Shown here: piece after piece, positions 9,393 to 62,701 of the stretch
How positions within the stretch are numbered: position 1 is the first letter of the stretch
Layout: every line of letters begins with the position of its first letter
From: Roseivirga thermotolerans
Lineage (GTDB): Bacteria; Bacteroidota; Bacteroidia; Cytophagales; Cyclobacteriaceae
Direction of reading: 5' to 3'
Length of the DNA: 64,000 bases
Assembly: GCF_014653175.1 (NCBI RefSeq)
Contig: NZ_BNAG01000001.1
Location: forward strand, 62,001-126,000
Program-made: the position numbers and the translations under genes
The notes under the pieces: model-generated
Database searches by the model: none
What the model saw: the letters and a program-made list of their open reading frames with translations, nothing else
Told to the model about the DNA's origin: nothing

Positions 9393-11582
9393 ATGAATTA
9401 CCAACTGAACGAAATAGCCAAACTCACAGCCGATTTCATCAATACCACCGATAGGCACGTATTCCTAACAGGCAAAGCGGGAACAGGAAAAACCACCTTC
9501 CTCAAACATATCGTTCAGCATACACACAAGAAAACCATTGTGGCAGCTCCCACGGGAATTGCCGCCATCAATGCGCAGGGAGTTACCCTACATTCTCTTT
9601 TGCAACTTCCGTTTGGTGCATTTATTCCCGAAAGGGTGGTTCCACCTGATGTGAACACCCAATTCACCACACTGTACAATCTGTTTTCTAATCTGAGGTT
9701 CAATAGCTCCAAAAGGCAGCTCATTCGAGAAATGGAACTACTCATCATTGATGAAGTAAGTATGCTCCGTGCCGATTTGCTCGACTGCATAGACCACATG
9801 CTTCGCTACCTGAGAAAACGAAAGGATGTGCCCTTTGGAGGAGCTCAAATTCTTTTCATTGGCGACCTGCTTCAACTGCCTCCTGTGGTAAAAGACGATG
9901 AGTGGAACATCTTGAAGAGCTACTACAACTCCAGCTACTTTTTTGAAGCCAAGGCCCTTTCTGCGGCATCTCTAATTCATGTCGAATTGGAGAAAATCTA
10001 TCGTCAAAGCGATGATCAGTTCATTGCTATTCTCAACCGATTTAGGGAGAACAAACAAACCAGAGAAGATATTGAATTCCTGAATCAGTATTACAAGCCG
10101 GAGATGAACGAAGCGGAAGCTGATGGCTACATTCACCTCACCACACACAACCGCAAAGCTGATAATATCAACTCCGAACGACTGCGGGCCTTAGACTCCA
10201 AAAGCTATTCCTTTCACGCAGAAATTGTCAACGACTTTCCGGAAAATTCTTACCCCATTCCGGAAGAGTTGGTCTTGAAAGAAGGAGCTCAGGTCATGTT
10301 CATTAAGAATGACCCAAGCGGTGAAGGCCAGTTTTTCAATGGAAAAATCGGTCATGTTTCTCACCTGTCTTCAGGAACTATAAAAGTGAAATTCAGCAAT
10401 GGAGAGGAAGTAGATGTTCCGCAATATACCTGGGAGAACAAGCGATATTCCCTGAACAAAGACACCAACGAGATTGATGAGAAAGTTCTGGGAAGTTTCA
10501 CTCACTTTCCACTCAAACTGGCCTGGGCTGTTACTGTGCACAAAAGTCAGGGACTTACCTTCGAAAAAGCCATTTTGGATCTTTCGGGGGCTTTTACCCA
10601 AGGTCAGGTCTATGTGGCCCTTTCCAGGCTAACTTCTTTAGACGGGCTGGTACTTTCATCCAAAATACCGACCGATGGTTTCGATATTTCCAGTTCCATG
10701 CGAGAGTTTTCGGCTGCCAAGCCTTCTCTCGATGAACTTTCAAGCAGACTTTCGCAAGACCGAAATAAGTACCTGTTCCAGCTCATCTCCCAGCATTTCG
10801 ATTTTCAGGAGGTGGTCAGGAGTTTCCGAAGCCATATTTCCAGCTTCGATAAGCAGGAAAACCGTTCGCTCAAGCAGCAATTTCTGGAGTGGACCAATCA
10901 GTTGACAGACCCCATCTTCCCGCTCGAAAAAGTAGGCAAGAGTTTTCAGAGTCAAGCCTACTCGATCATCCATCAGGAACAAGACATTCAACAGCTTTCC
11001 GAACGTGTTAAAAAGGCCAAGGACTATTTCACTCCTATTCTAATGACGACCTATGATGCCATAAAGGAGCACGACAAAAACCTGAAGGATAAGACCAGGC
11101 TCAAAACCTACAGAAAGGAATTGAAGGAACTCTCCGAATTGCTCTTCAACAAGCAAATGGCCTTGTTAAGGGCCGGCCTGTATATTCAGTTTTTGGCCGA
11201 AGGCAAAACCCTCACTAAGCAAGATGTTCAGGATGTGCTGAAGGAACTGATTATACCCAAAACGGAAAAGAAGAAAGACAAAACACCCACCGCTGAAATC
11301 AGCTTTGCCTTATATAAAGAGGGTAAAACTGTGGAAGAAATCGCTAAGGAAAGAGGCTTTGTAACCTCCACTATTGAAGGCCATCTCTGCAAATACATAG
11401 AAACAGGAGATGTAAAAGCCACTGACCTGATTGAGGAAGAAAAGCTCAAAAACATCCTCAGCCTCATCACCCCAGAAACCACCAGCCTCACCGAAATCAA
11501 AAGCCAACTAGGCGATGAATACACTTATGGAGATGTGAGAGTGGCCATGACGGAGTGGAAGAGAATCAGGGTTAAGGATTAA
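9393..11582 (+). CDS. Pif1-like superfamily 1 DNA helicase
   Basis: A 729-residue ATPase. Walker A is GKAGTGKTT (~27-35); motif Ia TGIAAINAQG; Walker B LIIDEVSM (~116); motif III GDLLQLPPV; a C-terminal UvrD_C_2-type motif AVTVHKSQGLTFEK and YVALSRL (~365-405). These are the hallmarks of Pif1/RecD2 helicases. After the motor domain come ~320 extra residues: a coiled, charged region (~420-590) and a helix-turn-helix segment around 620-690 (YKEGKTVEEIAKERGF) seen in bacterial RecQ/Pif1 C-termini. Likely role: unwinding DNA or G-quadruplexes in replication and repair. It is divergent from the small CxxC gene. Confidence 0.88.
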   Translation: MNYQLNEIAKLTADFINTTDRHVFLTGKAGTGKTTFLKHIVQHTHKKTIVAAPTGIAAINAQGVTLHSLLQLPFGAFIPERVVPPDVNTQFTTLYNLFSNLRFNSSKRQLIREMELLIIDEVSMLRADLLDCIDHMLRYLRKRKDVPFGGAQILFIGDLLQLPPVVKDDEWNILKSYYNSSYFFEAKALSAASLIHVELEKIYRQSDDQFIAILNRFRENKQTREDIEFLNQYYKPEMNEAEADGYIHLTTHNRKADNINSERLRALDSKSYSFHAEIVNDFPENSYPIPEELVLKEGAQVMFIKNDPSGEGQFFNGKIGHVSHLSSGTIKVKFSNGEEVDVPQYTWENKRYSLNKDTNEIDEKVLGSFTHFPLKLAWAVTVHKSQGLTFEKAILDLSGAFTQGQVYVALSRLTSLDGLVLSSKIPTDGFDISSSMREFSAAKPSLDELSSRLSQDRNKYLFQLISQHFDFQEVVRSFRSHISSFDKQENRSLKQQFLEWTNQLTDPIFPLEKVGKSFQSQAYSIIHQEQDIQQLSERVKKAKDYFTPILMTTYDAIKEHDKNLKDKTRLKTYRKELKELSELLFNKQMALLRAGLYIQFLAEGKTLTKQDVQDVLKELIIPKTEKKKDKTPTAEISFALYKEGKTVEEIAKERGFVTSTIEGHLCKYIETGDVKATDLIEEEKLKNILSLITPETTSLTEIKSQLGDEYTYGDVRVAMTEWKRIRVKD

Positions 11583-11734: not shown

Positions 11735-12103
11735 GGGGCCGACTGGAATTGACAGTAGGTGTAATGCAAGTGTAAGCATGCAGGGAGTTGTTAGTATTTC
11801 CCTTAAATAAAACTTTCATCATTTTAATTGGCGAAAGACAATACGCCCTTGCTGCCTAATCAGATTTAGATAGCAATGTGTCTCTCTCACCCCTCGTTCT
11901 GCCGGGTGGGAATATGAGACATCATCATGCAGAACTAGCGTAAGTGGATGTCGCGACACTTGCGTGAAATTAATCGCGGATAAGGTTTGGATTAGGGTGG
12001 TTGCTGTCCTTAACAAACTCGAAAACTAATCAGCAAATAAGCATGTAGAAGGCACTTAGTGTTCCTTATCTGGACGAGGGTTCGAATCCCTCCGGCTCCA
12101 CCA
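11735..12103 (+). ncRNA. ssrA: tmRNA (transfer-messenger RNA)
   Basis: The ends form a tRNA-like acceptor: 5' GGGGCCG pairs with CGGCTCC before A-CCA (one G-U), and the T arm reads GAGGG-TTCGAAT-CCCTC. The 5' part GGGGCCGACTGG and the encoded CCA at 12101-12103 are typical. The resume codon is probably GGC at 11830, giving the tag GERQYALAA followed by TAA at 11857-11859; Bacteroidota tags of the form GExxYALAA are known. With SmpB it rescues stalled ribosomes and tags proteins for proteolysis. Length 369 bases is normal. It is one-piece, not permuted. Confidence 0.95.
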
Positions 12104-12135
12104 TAAAAAGAGGCCACACTTGTGGTCTTTTTTAT
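12104..12135 (+). terminator. Rho-independent terminator of ssrA
   Basis: Starting directly after the CCA end, an A-rich 5' arm leads into AGGCCACA, a short loop and TGTGGTCT followed by six T residues. The stem is about 10 bp with two G-U pairs. Confidence 0.8.
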
Positions 12136-12469
12136 TGTCCGATTTAGGGTTTTGAGAACCCGGGCAGAGGGCTTGAAACCTTATGGTTCGTTAGAGGATA
12201 TACGGCATGCTTGTGCGTATGAGCCATCCACCGGTTCACATTTCCCCTCCGAAGCTTCGACATAGGCGGTCTTTTAAGTTTCCCATCTTGAGCGCAGCCG
12301 AAAGATCGGCCAAGCCTTCTTATTGGGCAGATCCCTCTGCTTCGGTCGGGATGGAAAACAAAGAACCCGCCTTTGTAAACTCCGGGCTCTTGGCAGTTCC
12401 TTGTTACTTTTTCCTCAAACTTTAAACTTTGAACTCTGAACATGTAACTCAAATTTATATCTTGCGGCA
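12136..12469 (+). other. Intergenic region before dnaX with a possible dispersed repeat
   Basis: No coding signal is convincing here. Around 12330-12352 there is a small imperfect palindrome: GATCCC, a TCTGCTTCGGTC centre, then GGGATG. Together with the preceding GAGCGCAGCCGAAAGATCGGCC it looks like a short repetitive intergenic element of the kind scattered in Cytophagales genomes (from memory). The right end holds TATCTTGC at 12458-12465, a promoter-like core for dnaX, only four bases before its ATG. Confidence 0.4.
12458..12465 (+). promoter_or_regulatory. Promoter core (TATCTTGC) for dnaX, implying a near-leaderless mRNA
   Basis: A TAnnTTGC core ends four bases before the dnaX ATG at 12470. 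If used, transcription would start at or very near the start codon. Confidence 0.35.
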
Positions 12470-13585
12470 ATGGAAAAATTCGTTGTCTCGGCAAGGAAGT
12501 ACAGACCGGTTGGTTTTGAGGAAGTTGTGGGTCAGGAGCACATCACTACTACCCTAAAAAACGCAATTGATAATGAGCAACTGGCTCAAGCACTACTCTT
12601 TTGTGGTCCCAGAGGGGTTGGAAAAACCACCTGCGCCAGAATTGTAGCCAGACTCATCAACGAACAGTCTATAGATAATCCCCTATTAGGCAACGATTCC
12701 TTTAATATCTATGAACTCGATGCGGCCTCCAACAACTCGGTAGACGATATCCGAAACCTGATCGATCAGGTGCGTTATCCTCCGCAGCAGGGCAAATTCA
12801 AGGTCTACATCATAGATGAGGTTCACATGCTTTCGAACCAGGCCTTCAATGCATTTTTGAAGACCCTGGAAGAGCCGCCTTCTTACGCCATTTTTATTCT
12901 GGCGACAACAGAGAAACATAAAGTAATTCCTACTATACTTTCCCGTTGTCAGATTTTCGACTTCAACAGAATTGAGGTAAGTGATATCTCAGGTCAGCTG
13001 AAAATGATTGCTGAGAAAGAAGGCATTGAGGCAGAAGATGAAGCGCTGAACCTGATTGCTCAAAAGGCAGATGGAGCTATGCGTGACGCCCTCTCCCTCT
13101 TCGATCTGATTGTTACCTTCTCTCATGGCAAAAAGGTTACCTATCAGGCCACAATAGACAACCTTCACATTCTGGACTACGACTACTACTTTAGAATGAC
13201 GGAAGCGTTGTTTAACGAAGACACCCCGGCTACTCTCTTGCTGTTTGATGAAATTTTGAAAAAAGGTTTTGACGGTCATAATTTCATTGTGGGACTAAGT
13301 GGTCATTTCAGAGACCTTATGGTGTGTAAAGACAATGCCACCATTCAATTATTGGAGGTTTCGGATACTGTAAAGGCTAAATATCAGGCCCAGGCCAACG
13401 AAGTGCCCATGTCGTTTTTACTCACCGCGCTGAACGTGGCCAACCAATGCGACATTCATTACAAAGCCAGTAAAAACCAGCGTTTACACGTGGAGCTTGC
13501 TCTCTTGAAAATGGCTCACCTAAAAAGAGCCATTCAGTTGGCCGAGGTGAGTGTTGCAGACGATTCATCAAAAAAAAAAGCCTAA
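12470..13585 (+). CDS. dnaX: DNA polymerase III gamma subunit (zero-frame product of dnaX)
   Basis: A 371-residue clamp-loader ATPase. N-terminal ARKYRPVGFEEVVGQEH, Walker A GPRGVGKTT (~44-52), the DnaX signature ELDAASNNSVDDIR, Walker B IIDEVHML, sensor 1 LATTEKHK and SRCQIFDF. It covers DnaX domains I-III (motor plus collar). The cysteine zinc module seen in E. coli DnaX between Walker A and ELDAASN is absent. The frame ends just after a run of ten A residues (13570-13579) with codons TCA AAA AAA AAA GCC TAA. The -1 frame is open from that run through 14265 and encodes the tau-specific region. I read this as gamma made in frame and tau made by -1 slippage. Confidence 0.9.
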   Translation: MEKFVVSARKYRPVGFEEVVGQEHITTTLKNAIDNEQLAQALLFCGPRGVGKTTCARIVARLINEQSIDNPLLGNDSFNIYELDAASNNSVDDIRNLIDQVRYPPQQGKFKVYIIDEVHMLSNQAFNAFLKTLEEPPSYAIFILATTEKHKVIPTILSRCQIFDFNRIEVSDISGQLKMIAEKEGIEAEDEALNLIAQKADGAMRDALSLFDLIVTFSHGKKVTYQATIDNLHILDYDYYFRMTEALFNEDTPATLLLFDEILKKGFDGHNFIVGLSGHFRDLMVCKDNATIQLLEVSDTVKAKYQAQANEVPMSFLLTALNVANQCDIHYKASKNQRLHVELALLKMAHLKRAIQLAEVSVADDSSKKKA

Positions 13586-13599
13586 CGCAGCCTGAGGCT
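13570..13599 (+). promoter_or_regulatory. Putative dnaX recoding site (A10 run plus small stem-loop)
   Basis: Ten A residues at 13570-13579 followed by G; the zero-frame stop TAA lies at 13583-13585; a compact hairpin AGCC-TGA-GGCT follows at 13589-13599. The A run fits both -1 ribosomal slippage (A-AAA-AAA) and RNA polymerase slippage as described for Thermus dnaX. Confidence 0.6.
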
Positions 13600-14265
13600 A
13601 CCGAACCTCAAGACGAAACGCCCGATCGTTCCTCTTCACCATTAGTGCCGGAGACCAATGCCACTCAGGCACCCACCAGCGAAGCGATAACAGTTGCCGA
13701 AAAGGCCCCTTCTACCTCTAAAGCGGAGGTTGCTCAAGCCGCCAAACCCGAGCCTACTACTAGTCGCCCAAAGCTTAGAAAGCCTCTCAGCACCAAAACC
13801 ATGGATATTCCAACGGACCTGAGTGCACTCAAGAAGGTGATTAGCAAGCCGAAAGAAGATATACAGGAAAAGGAAAAGGAGCCTACAGGACCTACTCGCC
13901 AGAAAAGCTTTGATGCGGCAACTCTGCAAAGGGAATGGATGGCTTTTGTAGAGCAACGACAGAAAATGGGGCTCACTCAGGAAGTACTCATTCTTAAAGA
14001 GCCTTATACTCTAAACGGAGAGCAAATTACCGTAACCATAGCCAATGAAGCCCTTGAACCAACCTTTGAGAAATTCAGAGGAGATCTTCTGCAATTTTTA
14101 AGAGACAGACTGGAAAACGACCTAATTACTGTTCGGTCTGAGGTAAGAGAAATGGAGCGGGAGAAAATGCTTTATACCGATAGAGAAAAGTTTGAACACC
14201 TCAAACGAAAATACCCTGCCTTGCGCGATCTTCAGGATAAACTGGGGTTAGACCCTGAATTTTAA
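13579..14265 (+). CDS. dnaX: tau-specific C-terminal region of DnaX, reached by -1 frameshift
   Basis: From the A run the -1 frame is open for about 228 codons. It begins with a proline/threonine-rich linker and then an acidic-basic region (LRKPLSTKTM, ISKPKEDIQ), ending in a folded domain (REWMAFVEQRQKMG, QREWM, EKFRGDLLQFLRD, LGLDPEF) like the C-terminus of Bacteroidota DnaX. There is no good independent start: the only in-frame start before the domain is GTG at 13645, without an RBS. Joined to the upstream frame it gives a ~598-residue tau, the normal size. The alternative is a sequencing error or natural disruption in the A run. Confidence 0.75.
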   Translation, partial: SLTQPEATEPQDETPDRSSSPLVPETNATQAPTSEAITVAEKAPSTSKAEVAQAAKPEPTTSRPKLRKPLSTKTMDIPTDLSALKKVISKPKEDIQEKEKEPTGPTRQKSFDAATLQREWMAFVEQRQKMGLTQEVLILKEPYTLNGEQITVTIANEALEPTFEKFRGDLLQFLRDRLENDLITVRSEVREMEREKMLYTDREKFEHLKRKYPALRDLQDKLGLDPEF

Positions 14266-14289
14266 GCAGCGGTTCCCCCGGGATTCCGG

Positions 14290-15201
14290 CTAAAACTTTA
14301 AGGTAAAGCCAACCGTTATCACGTTTTTCAACTGCACATCGCGCCCCCGGGTACCATCCGACCGTGTGACCTTTACATCATCATCATAGATGAGCTGCGT
14401 ATTTACTTTTGACTGTATAAAATCGTTGACTTTCAGGTTTAAACCAGCTTCTATATTCACCACCGTGTTGGGGAATTTTTCATAGTTGGAGAAGAAGTTG
14501 TAATTGGTTTTGAGCTCTACATTCTTCATTAAAGTTCTCTCAAAAGTACCAATGAGAGATATTCCGGCCTCCGAACGTATTTTTTCTCCGGCAATAACTC
14601 CAAACGACCCGGCCCTTGATAACGAGTCGTTGAGCACAAAGGTAAATCGGCCGGTAAATGGGGCCAGTGTAGCCGATAAGCCGGCTTGCGGTCTGTAGGT
14701 CAAACCAAGAGAAGCCTGCAAATATCCAGGAGCCATGAAGTCCGATATGAGTACTCTGCGTTTCTCCGATTGGCCTGCCACATTTTCCAGCTTAACCCCT
14801 TCGTCCATCTGGGTTCTAAAATTAATGGCGGCAGACATCAGAATCATTTGGCTAAACTTCTGACTGTACTTACTGGAGAGAATAATGGCATCGTCTGTCT
14901 TTTCAAAGCGATTGGTATTATCTCCTTTTCGAATTACTCCGTAACCAAACTTGGCTCTGTTTTCCCATACCACCTCTTCGCGTTCGTAGTTGGCAAACCC
15001 CTCCAAGGTACCTCCAATGGCCAAAGAAGACTCACCACCGGCTGCCCAGTTGGTCAATCCCACTTGTTGAATGTTCAATGCGAAAGAGCCTCCGTTTTTC
15101 CAATACACCACCGAGTCGGCCGCTGCCTCGGAGGAAGCGTTCTGTGCCCAAACCTGTTGAATTGAAAAGAGGAATAAGAATAGAATAGTCTTTTGAGTCA
15201 T
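14290..15201 (-). CDS. DUF3078 family exported protein
   Basis: A 303-residue protein with a signal peptide (~1-19, ending QVWAQ). The N-terminal WKNGGSFALNIQQVGLTNWA and GGESSLAIGG match DUF3078, and the rest is a series of amphipathic strands ending KNVITVGFTLKF, with the terminal phenylalanine typical of outer-membrane beta-barrels. It is probably an outer-membrane protein of unknown function, widespread in Bacteroidota. It is convergent with dnaX (24 bases apart). Confidence 0.82.
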   Translation of the reverse strand: MTQKTILFLFLFSIQQVWAQNASSEAAADSVVYWKNGGSFALNIQQVGLTNWAAGGESSLAIGGTLEGFANYEREEVVWENRAKFGYGVIRKGDNTNRFEKTDDAIILSSKYSQKFSQMILMSAAINFRTQMDEGVKLENVAGQSEKRRVLISDFMAPGYLQASLGLTYRPQAGLSATLAPFTGRFTFVLNDSLSRAGSFGVIAGEKIRSEAGISLIGTFERTLMKNVELKTNYNFFSNYEKFPNTVVNIEAGLNLKVNDFIQSKVNTQLIYDDDVKVTRSDGTRGRDVQLKNVITVGFTLKF

Positions 15202-15217
15202 TCCTATGATTCTGCTG

Positions 15218-15225
15218 CAAATGTA
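15218..15225 (-). promoter_or_regulatory. -7 element (TACATTTG) for the DUF3078 gene
   Basis: Minus strand TACATTTGC ends 16 bases before the ATG at 15201; exact TAnnTTTG match. Confidence 0.5.
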
Positions 15226-15285
15226 CGGGAGTAATCCAACCCCTAAAAATTCAAGGAAGCTTTTTGTCCAAAATGGTATTGTGCG

Positions 15286-17163
15286 TTAATTGGGCTTTCT
15301 GATGATCAGTTTTTCTCCAAGAGACAACGTATGGTCTGCCTTGTTATTCCACCGTTTTATATCTTCTATTTCAACTTCATATTTTTTGGATATCGACCAC
15401 ATAGTTTCTCCTTTGGCCACTTGATGAGTAATGATTTGAGGCTCTTTTACTTTGGGAGCATACCTTTCTCTGGGAACGAGCAACTTTAACTCTTGCCCAA
15501 TTTGCAGGCCATCGCTTAGTTTCAGATTATTCCATTCCAGAATTTCATCAATTTCTACTGCATATTCCTTGGCTATAGCAAAGAAGGTTTCCTGGTACCT
15601 GACCCGGTGAACAACCACCGTGTCCCGGGCCGTATTTGTGAGCGGTCTGATGGGTGTAGGTTCAATAAACACCTCATTATCATCGCGCAAAGGCAATTCA
15701 ACGGTTTTTGGCCTCACGTTTTCCTGGATGGTCCTTTCAGGCTGAACAGGTTTTTCAGGCTCCGGCTCGGGGGTGCTCTCAGGTAACGAAACCCGACTGT
15801 ACTCTACGGGAATATCTTTAGGCCTGATAAATCGGAGCCACAGCACACGCCCCACTTTCAATTGCTCCGCCTCTTTTATCCTGTTCTTTTGCATTAGCTT
15901 TTTCAGCTTTATGCCATAGTCTTGCGATATGCCCCACAGGGTTTCTCCGGGCTGTACAATATGGTAATGAACCTTACCCTTGTTGCGCTTTTTCTTTAGG
16001 TAGTAGTACCTGTCGGCTCTCACATTGCCTCTTTCACCAATGTCATTGAACTTCATCAGCCTTTCCGTTTTTACCCCCGTGCGGGCCGAAAGGCTTTGCA
16101 GATTGTCATTGCTTTTAGCTCGAACTGCAGGTATTCCGTTCAGCTCAATATTTCCGGGCTCATAGGCCTTGGCGGTGTTTCCCGTAATCTGCGGAAAAGC
16201 TCCTACGTTGCCAGCAATTGGCCTGAAGCGCATGCGTCTGGTTTCGGCCTTTGTGGTACTTTCCGAACGGTTATTCGAAGAGGCAGAACGCGACTTGTCT
16301 GCTTCATTAGTTTTCTGCGGTTCATCGCGCCTTACCACTACAGGTCCGCCTTTTTTAGCATCGGGATAGAATACCAGATAAGACTTATCGTCCGGAATCT
16401 GAGATTGGTTGAGCCATTTATTATAAGCCCTCAACTCATTGAAATCGGTACCTGTTGCCTGGCTCACCTGCCGCAAGGTTTTCCCTCGGCCTTCATAGCT
16501 GTGTAAACTCATATCGCTACGATACTTACCGTTGCCCACATAATCTTTAAAGGCCAGGTAATGAGCTATGAATTTCTTTATGTACCAGTGCGTTTTGCCA
16601 TCAATTACCATCGACTTTGCTCCGTACAACTTATCGTCAACAGAGCGCTGGGTACCGGTGAGCCCCTGTAAATACGACTGAAGCGAAAGCACCCAGTTAT
16701 CGAACACAAAGTTGCTTCGCTTAAAATATTTGGTAGCTCCAACGGTTGCTGCCACAATGTGCTTCCGTTCGTCTACCACGTTGTCTACCCGTAAGCCTAA
16801 TTCCTGAGCCGATGCTTTTTTGAACTGCCAGAAACCCACGGCATTGGAAGATGATACTGTATCGGATACAAACTGACTCTCTTGAATGGGCAGGTATTTA
16901 AAATCTTCCGGAATTCCTTCCTGGCGAAGCACCTCTTCTACATAAGGCATATACAGGCGAGACCTGTCTACAAGGCGCTGAAAATGGTACTGACTGCGGG
17001 TAAGCAGGTCTAAGGTTTGCTCAATTTCCTTCTTGGCATCGGACTGTATTTTGAGCCTGACCCCGGCAAATTCCATTTCATTGGGGACAGTGATTGGAGC
17101 TTGCGCTAATGAACGTAGCGAAGCCAGCAGGAGAATGAGTAGTGCGGTGAAAGTCTTTCTCAC
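15286..17163 (-). CDS. Lytic transglycosylase with LysM repeats (MltD-like)
   Basis: A 625-residue exported protein. After a signal peptide (~1-20) comes a transglycosylase SLT domain (~70-200): PEDFKYLPIQESQF contains the catalytic glutamate, followed by AVGFWQFKKASAQ and YLQGLTG. A linker rich in charged residues is followed by LysM domains (VQPGETLWGISQDYG, VRYQETFFAIAKEY, VAKGETMWSISKKY). It cleaves peptidoglycan glycan strands in the periplasm. It starts with GTG, and GTGA overlaps the stop of the O-methyltransferase gene, so the two are co-transcribed. Confidence 0.88.
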   Translation of the reverse strand: MRKTFTALLILLLASLRSLAQAPITVPNEMEFAGVRLKIQSDAKKEIEQTLDLLTRSQYHFQRLVDRSRLYMPYVEEVLRQEGIPEDFKYLPIQESQFVSDTVSSSNAVGFWQFKKASAQELGLRVDNVVDERKHIVAATVGATKYFKRSNFVFDNWVLSLQSYLQGLTGTQRSVDDKLYGAKSMVIDGKTHWYIKKFIAHYLAFKDYVGNGKYRSDMSLHSYEGRGKTLRQVSQATGTDFNELRAYNKWLNQSQIPDDKSYLVFYPDAKKGGPVVVRRDEPQKTNEADKSRSASSNNRSESTTKAETRRMRFRPIAGNVGAFPQITGNTAKAYEPGNIELNGIPAVRAKSNDNLQSLSARTGVKTERLMKFNDIGERGNVRADRYYYLKKKRNKGKVHYHIVQPGETLWGISQDYGIKLKKLMQKNRIKEAEQLKVGRVLWLRFIRPKDIPVEYSRVSLPESTPEPEPEKPVQPERTIQENVRPKTVELPLRDDNEVFIEPTPIRPLTNTARDTVVVHRVRYQETFFAIAKEYAVEIDEILEWNNLKLSDGLQIGQELKLLVPRERYAPKVKEPQIITHQVAKGETMWSISKKYEVEIEDIKRWNNKADHTLSLGEKLIIRKPN

Positions 17164-61790: not shown

Positions 61791-62701
61791 ATATAACTAA
61801 GGAAACAGCAAAGAATAAAGAAGGTCTCTTGCAATACTTTAGAGATAGGTCAAGTGAATTTTTGTCAGAAGTAAATGGCGAGTATGGTAATACTGAATAC
61901 AAAAAGAAAGCAAAGAAATTAAACACACTTCTTGTTAAAGCCAGAACTACGATTATTGAAATAATTGAGCAAAAAGGAAAAAAAGAAAATTGGACAAATA
62001 AAGAAATTCTCGAGTGCGTGTTGATGGTTACTTACTGCAATTATGTTGTAATGCTTGAAGTTCGTCATTCGGTTTGGCCTTATGAATATATGGCTTTCTC
62101 ACGTAGAATAGGAGAATTATGGGAACCATTTTGCAAATTAGCTTTTGAGTACCCCATAAACGATTTAGAGCTTTTTGTTCCACCTTTATTTGCTGATGTA
62201 AAAAAGCAATTAGCTGATGAAATTGAAGATTTCATTAACGGATTGAATCTCACGAATGAAGAAAAGGAGCAACTAATCAAATACTACAACAAAGTTTGGA
62301 GTTTGGTAATGTCTGGAGAAATTCAACTTGAACTTGATTTACATTTCATATTTGAAGGCAAAAAATATGTTGTGGATTTTAAAAGTGGATTTGGCTCAAA
62401 TGAAAAAGGAAATACGAATAGACTATTATTAGTTGCAAGTATCTACCACAACCTTGAAGATAATTACGAACCGTTAATCTTCGTGAGAGCGTCAGAAAAC
62501 AACAATTACTTTAACACATTGAAAAACTCTGGAATTTGGAGTGCCTTTTCAGGTTCAGAAACCTATGACGAACTTCATAAATATTCAGGATTTGACATTC
62601 GCTCTTGGATTAACCAAAATGTGAATTGGGCAGAAGATTTAGATGATGACTTTGTAGAGCATTTAGAGTCTAACGATTTAACACAATATTTAACTTGGTA
62701 A
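61787..62701 (+). CDS. Probable type II restriction endonuclease
   Basis: A 304-residue protein. The most informative motif is LDLHFIFEGKKYVVDFKSGF, in which D and the D-F-K group fit a PD-(D/E)xK nuclease core near residues 180-205. No signal peptide. The start overlaps the controller stop (ATGA) and the stop is one base before the methyltransferase ATG, so the three genes are one operon. Recognition sequence is not predictable here. Family identity rests mainly on context. Confidence 0.75.
   Translation: MNITKETAKNKEGLLQYFRDRSSEFLSEVNGEYGNTEYKKKAKKLNTLLVKARTTIIEIIEQKGKKENWTNKEILECVLMVTYCNYVVMLEVRHSVWPYEYMAFSRRIGELWEPFCKLAFEYPINDLELFVPPLFADVKKQLADEIEDFINGLNLTNEEKEQLIKYYNKVWSLVMSGEIQLELDLHFIFEGKKYVVDFKSGFGSNEKGNTNRLLLVASIYHNLEDNYEPLIFVRASENNNYFNTLKNSGIWSAFSGSETYDELHKYSGFDIRSWINQNVNWAEDLDDDFVEHLESNDLTQYLTW

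Follow-up and report, generated by a model that had tools for sequence, protein, structure and literature searches.

We investigated how the two products of dnaX, gamma and tau, could be made from a Roseivirga thermotolerans gene that is divided between two reading frames at a run of ten A residues (A10). The gene lies in the window, i.e., the whole stretch of 64,000 nucleotides that was analysed, of a genome comprising 4,208,140 bases (4.21 Mb) in 12 contigs, where it occupies positions 62001–126000 of contig C1. Its features are summarized in Table 1. The gamma part matched the Pfam families DNA_pol3_delta2 (5e-35), DNAX_ATPase_lid (1e-14), and DNA_pol3_gamma3 (2e-6), and the NCBIfam model of the DnaX N-terminal part, TIGR02397 (8e-116, over the model cut-off). 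The window dnaX was the only site in the genome over this cut-off, and 7 further sites matched weakly, all below it. The 3′ end of the gamma frame reads TCA AAA AAA AAA GCC TAA, and the −1 frame, which opens 96 nt 5′ of A10, extends to a stop at 14263–14265. Counting from the start of A10, frame 0 stays open for 4 codons and the third frame for 7 (locus L009). The tau-specific part matched NCBIfam NF011531 (gamma/tau) at model positions 394–612 of 614 with an E value of 6e-26. Gamma closes frame 0 and tau goes on in the −1 frame, which is the arrangement of a two-ORF gene, and a shift on A10 would join 370 and 228 codons into a tau of 598 residues. These results agree with the initial annotation, in which a zero-frame gamma of 371 residues ends two codons past ten A residues and the −1 frame, open from the run, encodes the DnaX C-terminal domain of a tau of approximately 598 residues.

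Table 1. Coordinates of the features of the dnaX locus (positions in the window).
Feature	Position	Strand	Basis or remark
dnaX, whole	12470–14265	+	DNA-polymerase clamp loader gene
dnaX frame 0, gamma, 371 aa (AAA+ ATPase, lid, domain III)	12470–13585	+	ORF and Pfam/NCBIfam matches
A10, putative slip site	13570–13579	+	Read from the sequence; A10 in 18/18 genus loci
TAA ending gamma (frame 0)	13583–13585	+	Second codon past A10
Tau-specific part, −1 frame, 228 codons and stop (linker, then conserved C-terminal domain)	13579–14265	+	NF011531, conservation
Conserved C-terminal domain of tau	about 13915–14262		
Weak 5-bp hairpin	13593–13610	+	Probably not functional; no excess stability

Homopolymers are error-prone, and one locus alone could not rule out a sequencing error. 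The search of 18 congeneric genomes gave a dnaX locus in 17 (one partial), and the eighteenth, an 80% complete genome, gave a weak dnaX match only. All 18 genus loci (the 17 congeners and the window) were split alike and in the same direction: each carried a run of exactly ten A residues in an unchanged phase, with the stop right behind the run. The lysines of the run were encoded exclusively by AAA in all 18 genus genes versus 4.6 expected from the AAA/AAG use of each gene. The downstream frame also stays conserved among the congeners: the motif YTDxEKF and the ending LDPEF were present in 17/17 aligned genus loci, and the dN/dS value of the last 130 codons of the shifted frame was 0.054 (5 usable pairs among 17 genus loci). 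The value for the tau linker was 0.63 (genus loci, few usable pairs). Out of 136 possible pairs, values were obtained for 26 (10 usable) in the whole C-terminal part, 21 (8 usable) in the N-terminal part, and 13 (5 usable) in the last 130 codons; usable pairs were few because dS was near saturation. These comparisons indicate that the shifted frame evolves like coding sequence. Because the A10 arrangement was found in all 18 genus loci, the dnaX split is neither an error, short of a shared one, nor a pseudogene; with the conserved downstream frame and the single place in the genome over the DnaX cut-off, an error of sequencing or assembly, or a genuine frameshift pseudogene, is scarcely credible. 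The programmed gamma/tau recoding proposed in the initial annotation is supported by this shared arrangement and by the coding character of the shifted frame.

Of the family's loci outside the genus, 12 were compared: 11 were split at A10 or A11, and L030 carried A11 with tau in frame 0. The wider set comprised 178 related loci, all distinct when 300 nt at the junction were compared. The order contributed 46, counting the window locus, and a further 52 bore the label of the same class; the remaining 80 were named records grouped at the level of the phylum Bacteroidota, the top-ranking 80 among at least 594 matches. Several of the best named relatives are members of Cytophagales, the order to which the initial annotation also pointed. 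Within residues 325–520, an A run of at least nine (A9–A13) was found in 163 of the 178 loci and exactly A10 in 135, but these counts are not prevalence estimates because the named set and the listed coordinates are biased to close relatives. The run lay at residues 345–400, after the ATPase part, in 161 of the 163, and no A run above 8 occurred within codons 1–320 of these 178 genes. It was kept even in dnaX genes of 60–63% G+C. All-AAA runs were observed in 174/174 genes with a run versus 76.5 expected from their own AAA/AAG use, a figure that expresses the improbability of the run and is no independent count, since the genes were chosen for having it. Among 40 hand-picked loci from other classes of the phylum, 12 carried A9 or A10. 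The A run, whose comparison across relatives the initial annotation had proposed, is shared well beyond the genus in the set examined. Relatives with one uninterrupted frame and no run, which it had named as contrary evidence, number at most 15 of the 178, and 87 loci with tau in one frame keep the run.

The 15 loci without an A run of at least 8 within residues 325–520 include L033 and L110, which carry a long run further on, and also L086, whose open frame is short (383 aa) and lacks an A run. Seven of the eight named records without the run were Bacteroidales, yet the run was present in 10/17 named Bacteroidales. The dnaX gene is a single frame and has no long A run at this position in L146 and L163 (f23 g55), in L151 and L161 (f20 g37), and, among Bacteroidaceae, in L092, L104, and L112. 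The f19 loci (probably Flavobacteriaceae; e.g., L147–L150 and L152–L154) showed a near-constant GATGGAG before the run and, after it, a conserved ATAATTCC-like stretch, in which a non-tau frame can meet a stop and which may therefore be dual-coding.

We scored polarity, i.e., which product is encoded in frame 0, in 162 loci and found tau in 87 and gamma in 75. L098 (A13, a MAG) was excluded from the stop and polarity tests. A single FastTree gene tree of the 162 loci gave at least 21 polarity changes, versus 46–61 in 100 shuffles, a count that tree error or single-genome sequence errors could inflate. In the first within-genus survey (38/40 genomes matched, 30 loci fetched), tau was in frame 0 in 27/30 loci (18 A10, 8 A11, and 1 A14). 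Gamma was in frame 0 in the other 3, and their indels differed: one had A9 and flanks like the rest, one had A11 and a changed flank, and in one A10 was followed by two bases fewer. In the second genus (g30; the query locus L100 is from a Flavobacterium), 30/30 best matches had A10 with gamma in frame 0, and open frames of at least 566 aa at 10 of about 147 listed places imply tau in frame 0 there. L100, with A9 beside A10 relatives, and the three gamma exceptions could be sequencing errors. The proposition that A9 occurs only in tau-in-frame genes (22/98 versus 0/73) was weakened by the gamma-in-frame A9 loci L100 and L237. The initial annotation had assigned the short product to the zero frame and the long one to the shifted frame, and the 18/18 genus loci and the 30/30 best g30 matches bear this out.

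We consider it likely, with room for a ribosomal contribution, that this dnaX is a gene of programmed RNA-polymerase slippage on A10, similar to that of Thermus but with gamma in frame 0. The polymerase would slip on A10 and produce a mixed transcript pool. Messages with A10 (also A9, A12, and A13) would meet the stop just past the run and give gamma of about 371 aa, and messages with A11 (one extra A) or two fewer would join the C-terminal domain and give tau of about 598 aa. Relatives would have switched frame 0 repeatedly with the run held at about ten A, and the DNA's choice of frame 0 would matter little because stops soon close both non-tau frames. The longer product could then be made only via a slip on the run, probably in transcription and less likely in translation. 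We infer from the sequences the level of slippage (transcription), its rate, and the accumulation of both proteins.

Since slipped transcripts fall into all three frames, polymerase slippage predicts fast closure of both non-tau frames. With a −1 ribosomal shift, one frame is never read, and that frame is expected to be closed by chance alone. We compared the stops of 174 genes (162 of the 178-locus set and 12 from other classes) with a null of shuffled tau codons for each gene, at cut-offs of 3 and 7 codons that were picked post hoc with the data already seen. The +1 frame was closed within 7 codons in 84/98 tau-in-frame genes versus 36.0 expected, and the third frame was closed within 3 codons in 55/73 gamma-in-frame genes versus 23.7 expected. 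The frame-0 stop lay within 7 codons of the run in 73/73 gamma-in-frame (+1A) genes versus 28.1 expected, where nearness alone counts because these genes were picked for closing frame 0. Among representatives below 70% identity, the figures were 20/24 for tau-in-frame genes (8.6 expected) and 7/11 for gamma-in-frame genes (3.3 expected, p 0.017). Below 65% identity, tau-in-frame genes gave 12/15 versus 5.3 expected, and the third frame of gamma-in-frame genes gave 3/6 versus 1.9 expected, which was not significant.

Programmed −1 ribosomal frameshifting on A_AAA_AAA, with faithful transcription, could also give tau, and several observations speak for it and against slippage. Tau was in the −1 frame in 73/76 gamma-in-frame genes analysed, and the slippery heptamer A_AAA_AAA was present at the window dnaX and in every gamma-in-frame run. 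Shine-Dalgarno (SD)-like cores within 20 nt 5′ of the run occurred in 79/174 genes of the whole set (20.3 expected) and in 7/12 other family loci (1.8 expected), and GAG was mildly in excess over GAA upstream of the run (33/68 versus 24.7 expected). By the rule of the GeneTack study (PMC3711429), the almost constant −1 position of tau points to ribosomal shifting; a preference of the polymerase for inserting A would also give the −1 bias. Acidic residues before the lysines may partly cause the upstream purine/SD enrichment, which did not extend to the genus (2/18 versus 2.4 expected). Seven A residues would suffice for such a shift, yet 9–11 are retained, and the third frame is closed although the shift does not need it. 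The strong E. coli site A_AAA_AAG is missing from the zero-frame register (TCA AAA AAA AAA GCC in the window), and the gamma-in-frame loci L066, L100, and L134 require the +1 frame, where errors in single genomes are possible. The compact hairpin that the initial annotation had noted after the run is not supported as a signal. The 101-nt stretch at the hairpin folded no better than shuffles (z +0.59), and the mean z of 18 loci was +0.16, i.e., a stem-loop signal was absent from the genus; for these reasons we rejected it as a stimulator there. In the whole set of 174 genes the mean fold z was −0.34 versus −0.18 in control windows, with no clear stem-loop signal, and in the 12 other family loci it was −0.71 versus +0.04. 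Ribosomal shifting as the sole source of tau is unlikely in our judgment. Because the run has 9–11 A residues, both non-tau frames are closed, the genus has no hairpin, and A_AAA_AAG is out of the zero register, Thermus-type slippage fits better than E. coli-type shifting.

The coexistence of signals of both kinds would suit a combination in which the ratio is governed mainly by polymerase slippage, with a further −1 component from ribosomes on the same run. This overlaps with slippage as the main source of tau, and we regard the combination as doubtful; no observation demands the second layer. The two adjacent ORFs could alternatively yield the C-terminal part as a separate protein by re-initiation past the gamma stop. 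An ATG within 8 codons past the run was found in 0/74 gamma-in-frame (+1A) genes and any start in 1/74, the window offers no possible start until 21 codons downstream, and both parts are in one frame in 87/162 related genes with a run. Start codons near the run being essentially missing, we rejected re-initiation as very improbable.

Polymerase slippage on A10, the reading that we prefer, has several relatives among described systems. Thermus thermophilus dnaX (Larsen 2000, via PMC1088944 and PMC5009743) likewise has an A-run slippage site with nearby stops in both other frames. Its run is A9, tau is in frame 0, and gamma comes from slipped messages, whereas the present gene has A10 and the roles are reversed. 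At the window dnaX, a run of at least nine A and the non-tau stops were found, and tau was not in frame 0. Similarly to E. coli dnaX (PMC5009743), one gene has two products and the shift lies past the shared ATPase domains; the E. coli gene, however, uses a ribosomal −1 shift at A_AAA_AAG, which is flanked by an SD on its 5′ side and a stem-loop on its 3′ side, and its tau is in frame 0. Neither a zero-frame A_AAA_AAG nor a stable downstream stem-loop was found at the window dnaX. The longer product also needs a slipped message in Shigella mxiE (PMC1088944), but on a U run, and in homopolymer-frameshifted genes of Blochmannia (PMC3017870), where the genomes are those of reduced endosymbionts and the dnaX case lies downstream of the usual shift site. 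GeneTack (2013, PMC3711429) reported 17 two-ORF dnaX genes in 12 genera, nine with 10 As, for which transcriptional realignment was proposed; gamma is in frame 0 and tau is reached by −1 at the DNA level, as here. Since two-ORF A10 dnaX genes are already contained in that source, the present gene belongs to a described kind. The present comparison goes beyond those 17 genes in taking in 178 related loci, genes of either polarity, and the third frame. No class-wide account of dnaX slippage in Bacteroidota was found in the open-access literature, most subscription papers lying outside it, and as far as the literature was searched, what is new is how widely the arrangement is conserved, how its polarity switches, and that the third frame is closed as well.

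A10 is rare: other A runs on the + strand of the window were no longer than 8 and T runs no longer than 9, and the whole genome contained four A10 sites on both strands. These sites were in dnaX, in a LiaF-like gene, and 5′ of two other genes, which we take to be sigma factor genes. The LiaF-like A10 (L229/L291; G000:C1:901954-901963) is outside the window. The gene has the domains LiaF-TM, LiaI-LiaF-like TM1, and LiaF-like C, with the run separating the membrane part from the C-terminal domain, and lies 5′ of a histidine kinase gene. Of 14 genus orthologues, 9 carried A10, 4 carried A9, and 1 carried A7; one of the 14 (L303) starts at a contig end. In 14/14, frame 0 was open past the run and the −1 frame was closed within 0–3 codons, versus shuffle medians of 3–9 codons (13 orthologues); the +1 frame stayed open early and closed at 5–41 codons. 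Within the stretch searched, 4 of 28 other family loci had A9 or longer. The LiaF-like gene is therefore a possible candidate for a second slippage gene with a truncated, TM-only form.

Taken more broadly, slippage on about ten A may have set the tau:gamma ratio since early Bacteroidia, with the DNA frame nearly neutral and the device reused in other genes, such as that of the LiaF-like envelope-stress protein with its genus-wide A9–10 run. We put this class-wide reading forward tentatively, as a real possibility somewhat short of an even one. Within it, the run would act as a near frame-randomiser, so that the DNA frame flips freely, and whole free-living genera would make tau from slipped transcripts only. 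In every congener examined, tau, a replisome subunit, appears wholly slippage-dependent. The polarity switches at near-constant run length set the signal, i.e., the run and its flanking stops, apart from the DNA frame, and this separation offers a natural test of transcriptional slippage versus ribosomal shifting. Such genes risk being annotated as frameshifted pseudogenes, or gamma alone may be taken as the full protein. The scarcity of A10 in the genome suggests a simple way to find other slippage genes.

We also compared the tau-specific part with known proteins. Pfam gave no match above any cut-off, BLASTP with E. coli tau gave a best E value of 0.19, and the best match of the tau-specific profile to PDB sequences (E 0.076) was unrelated by name. 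The predicted structure of the last 150 tau residues had a mean pLDDT of 73.8, with core blocks of 86–92. Foldseek of the predicted C-terminus against the PDB gave no match with E ≤ 0.001; the helicase loader DciA ranked first (E 0.05), amid unrelated folds, and DnaA domain I ranked seventh (E 0.48, TM-score by target 0.67). This ranking is a pointer towards a replisome-adaptor fold, a lead and not proof.

A tmRNA gene with the tag peptide GERQYALAA lies just 5′ of dnaX (window 11735–12103, +) and was the sole match in an Rfam scan of 11900–15300. A PIF1-like helicase with a C-terminal HTH_40 domain is encoded at window 9393–11582 (+).
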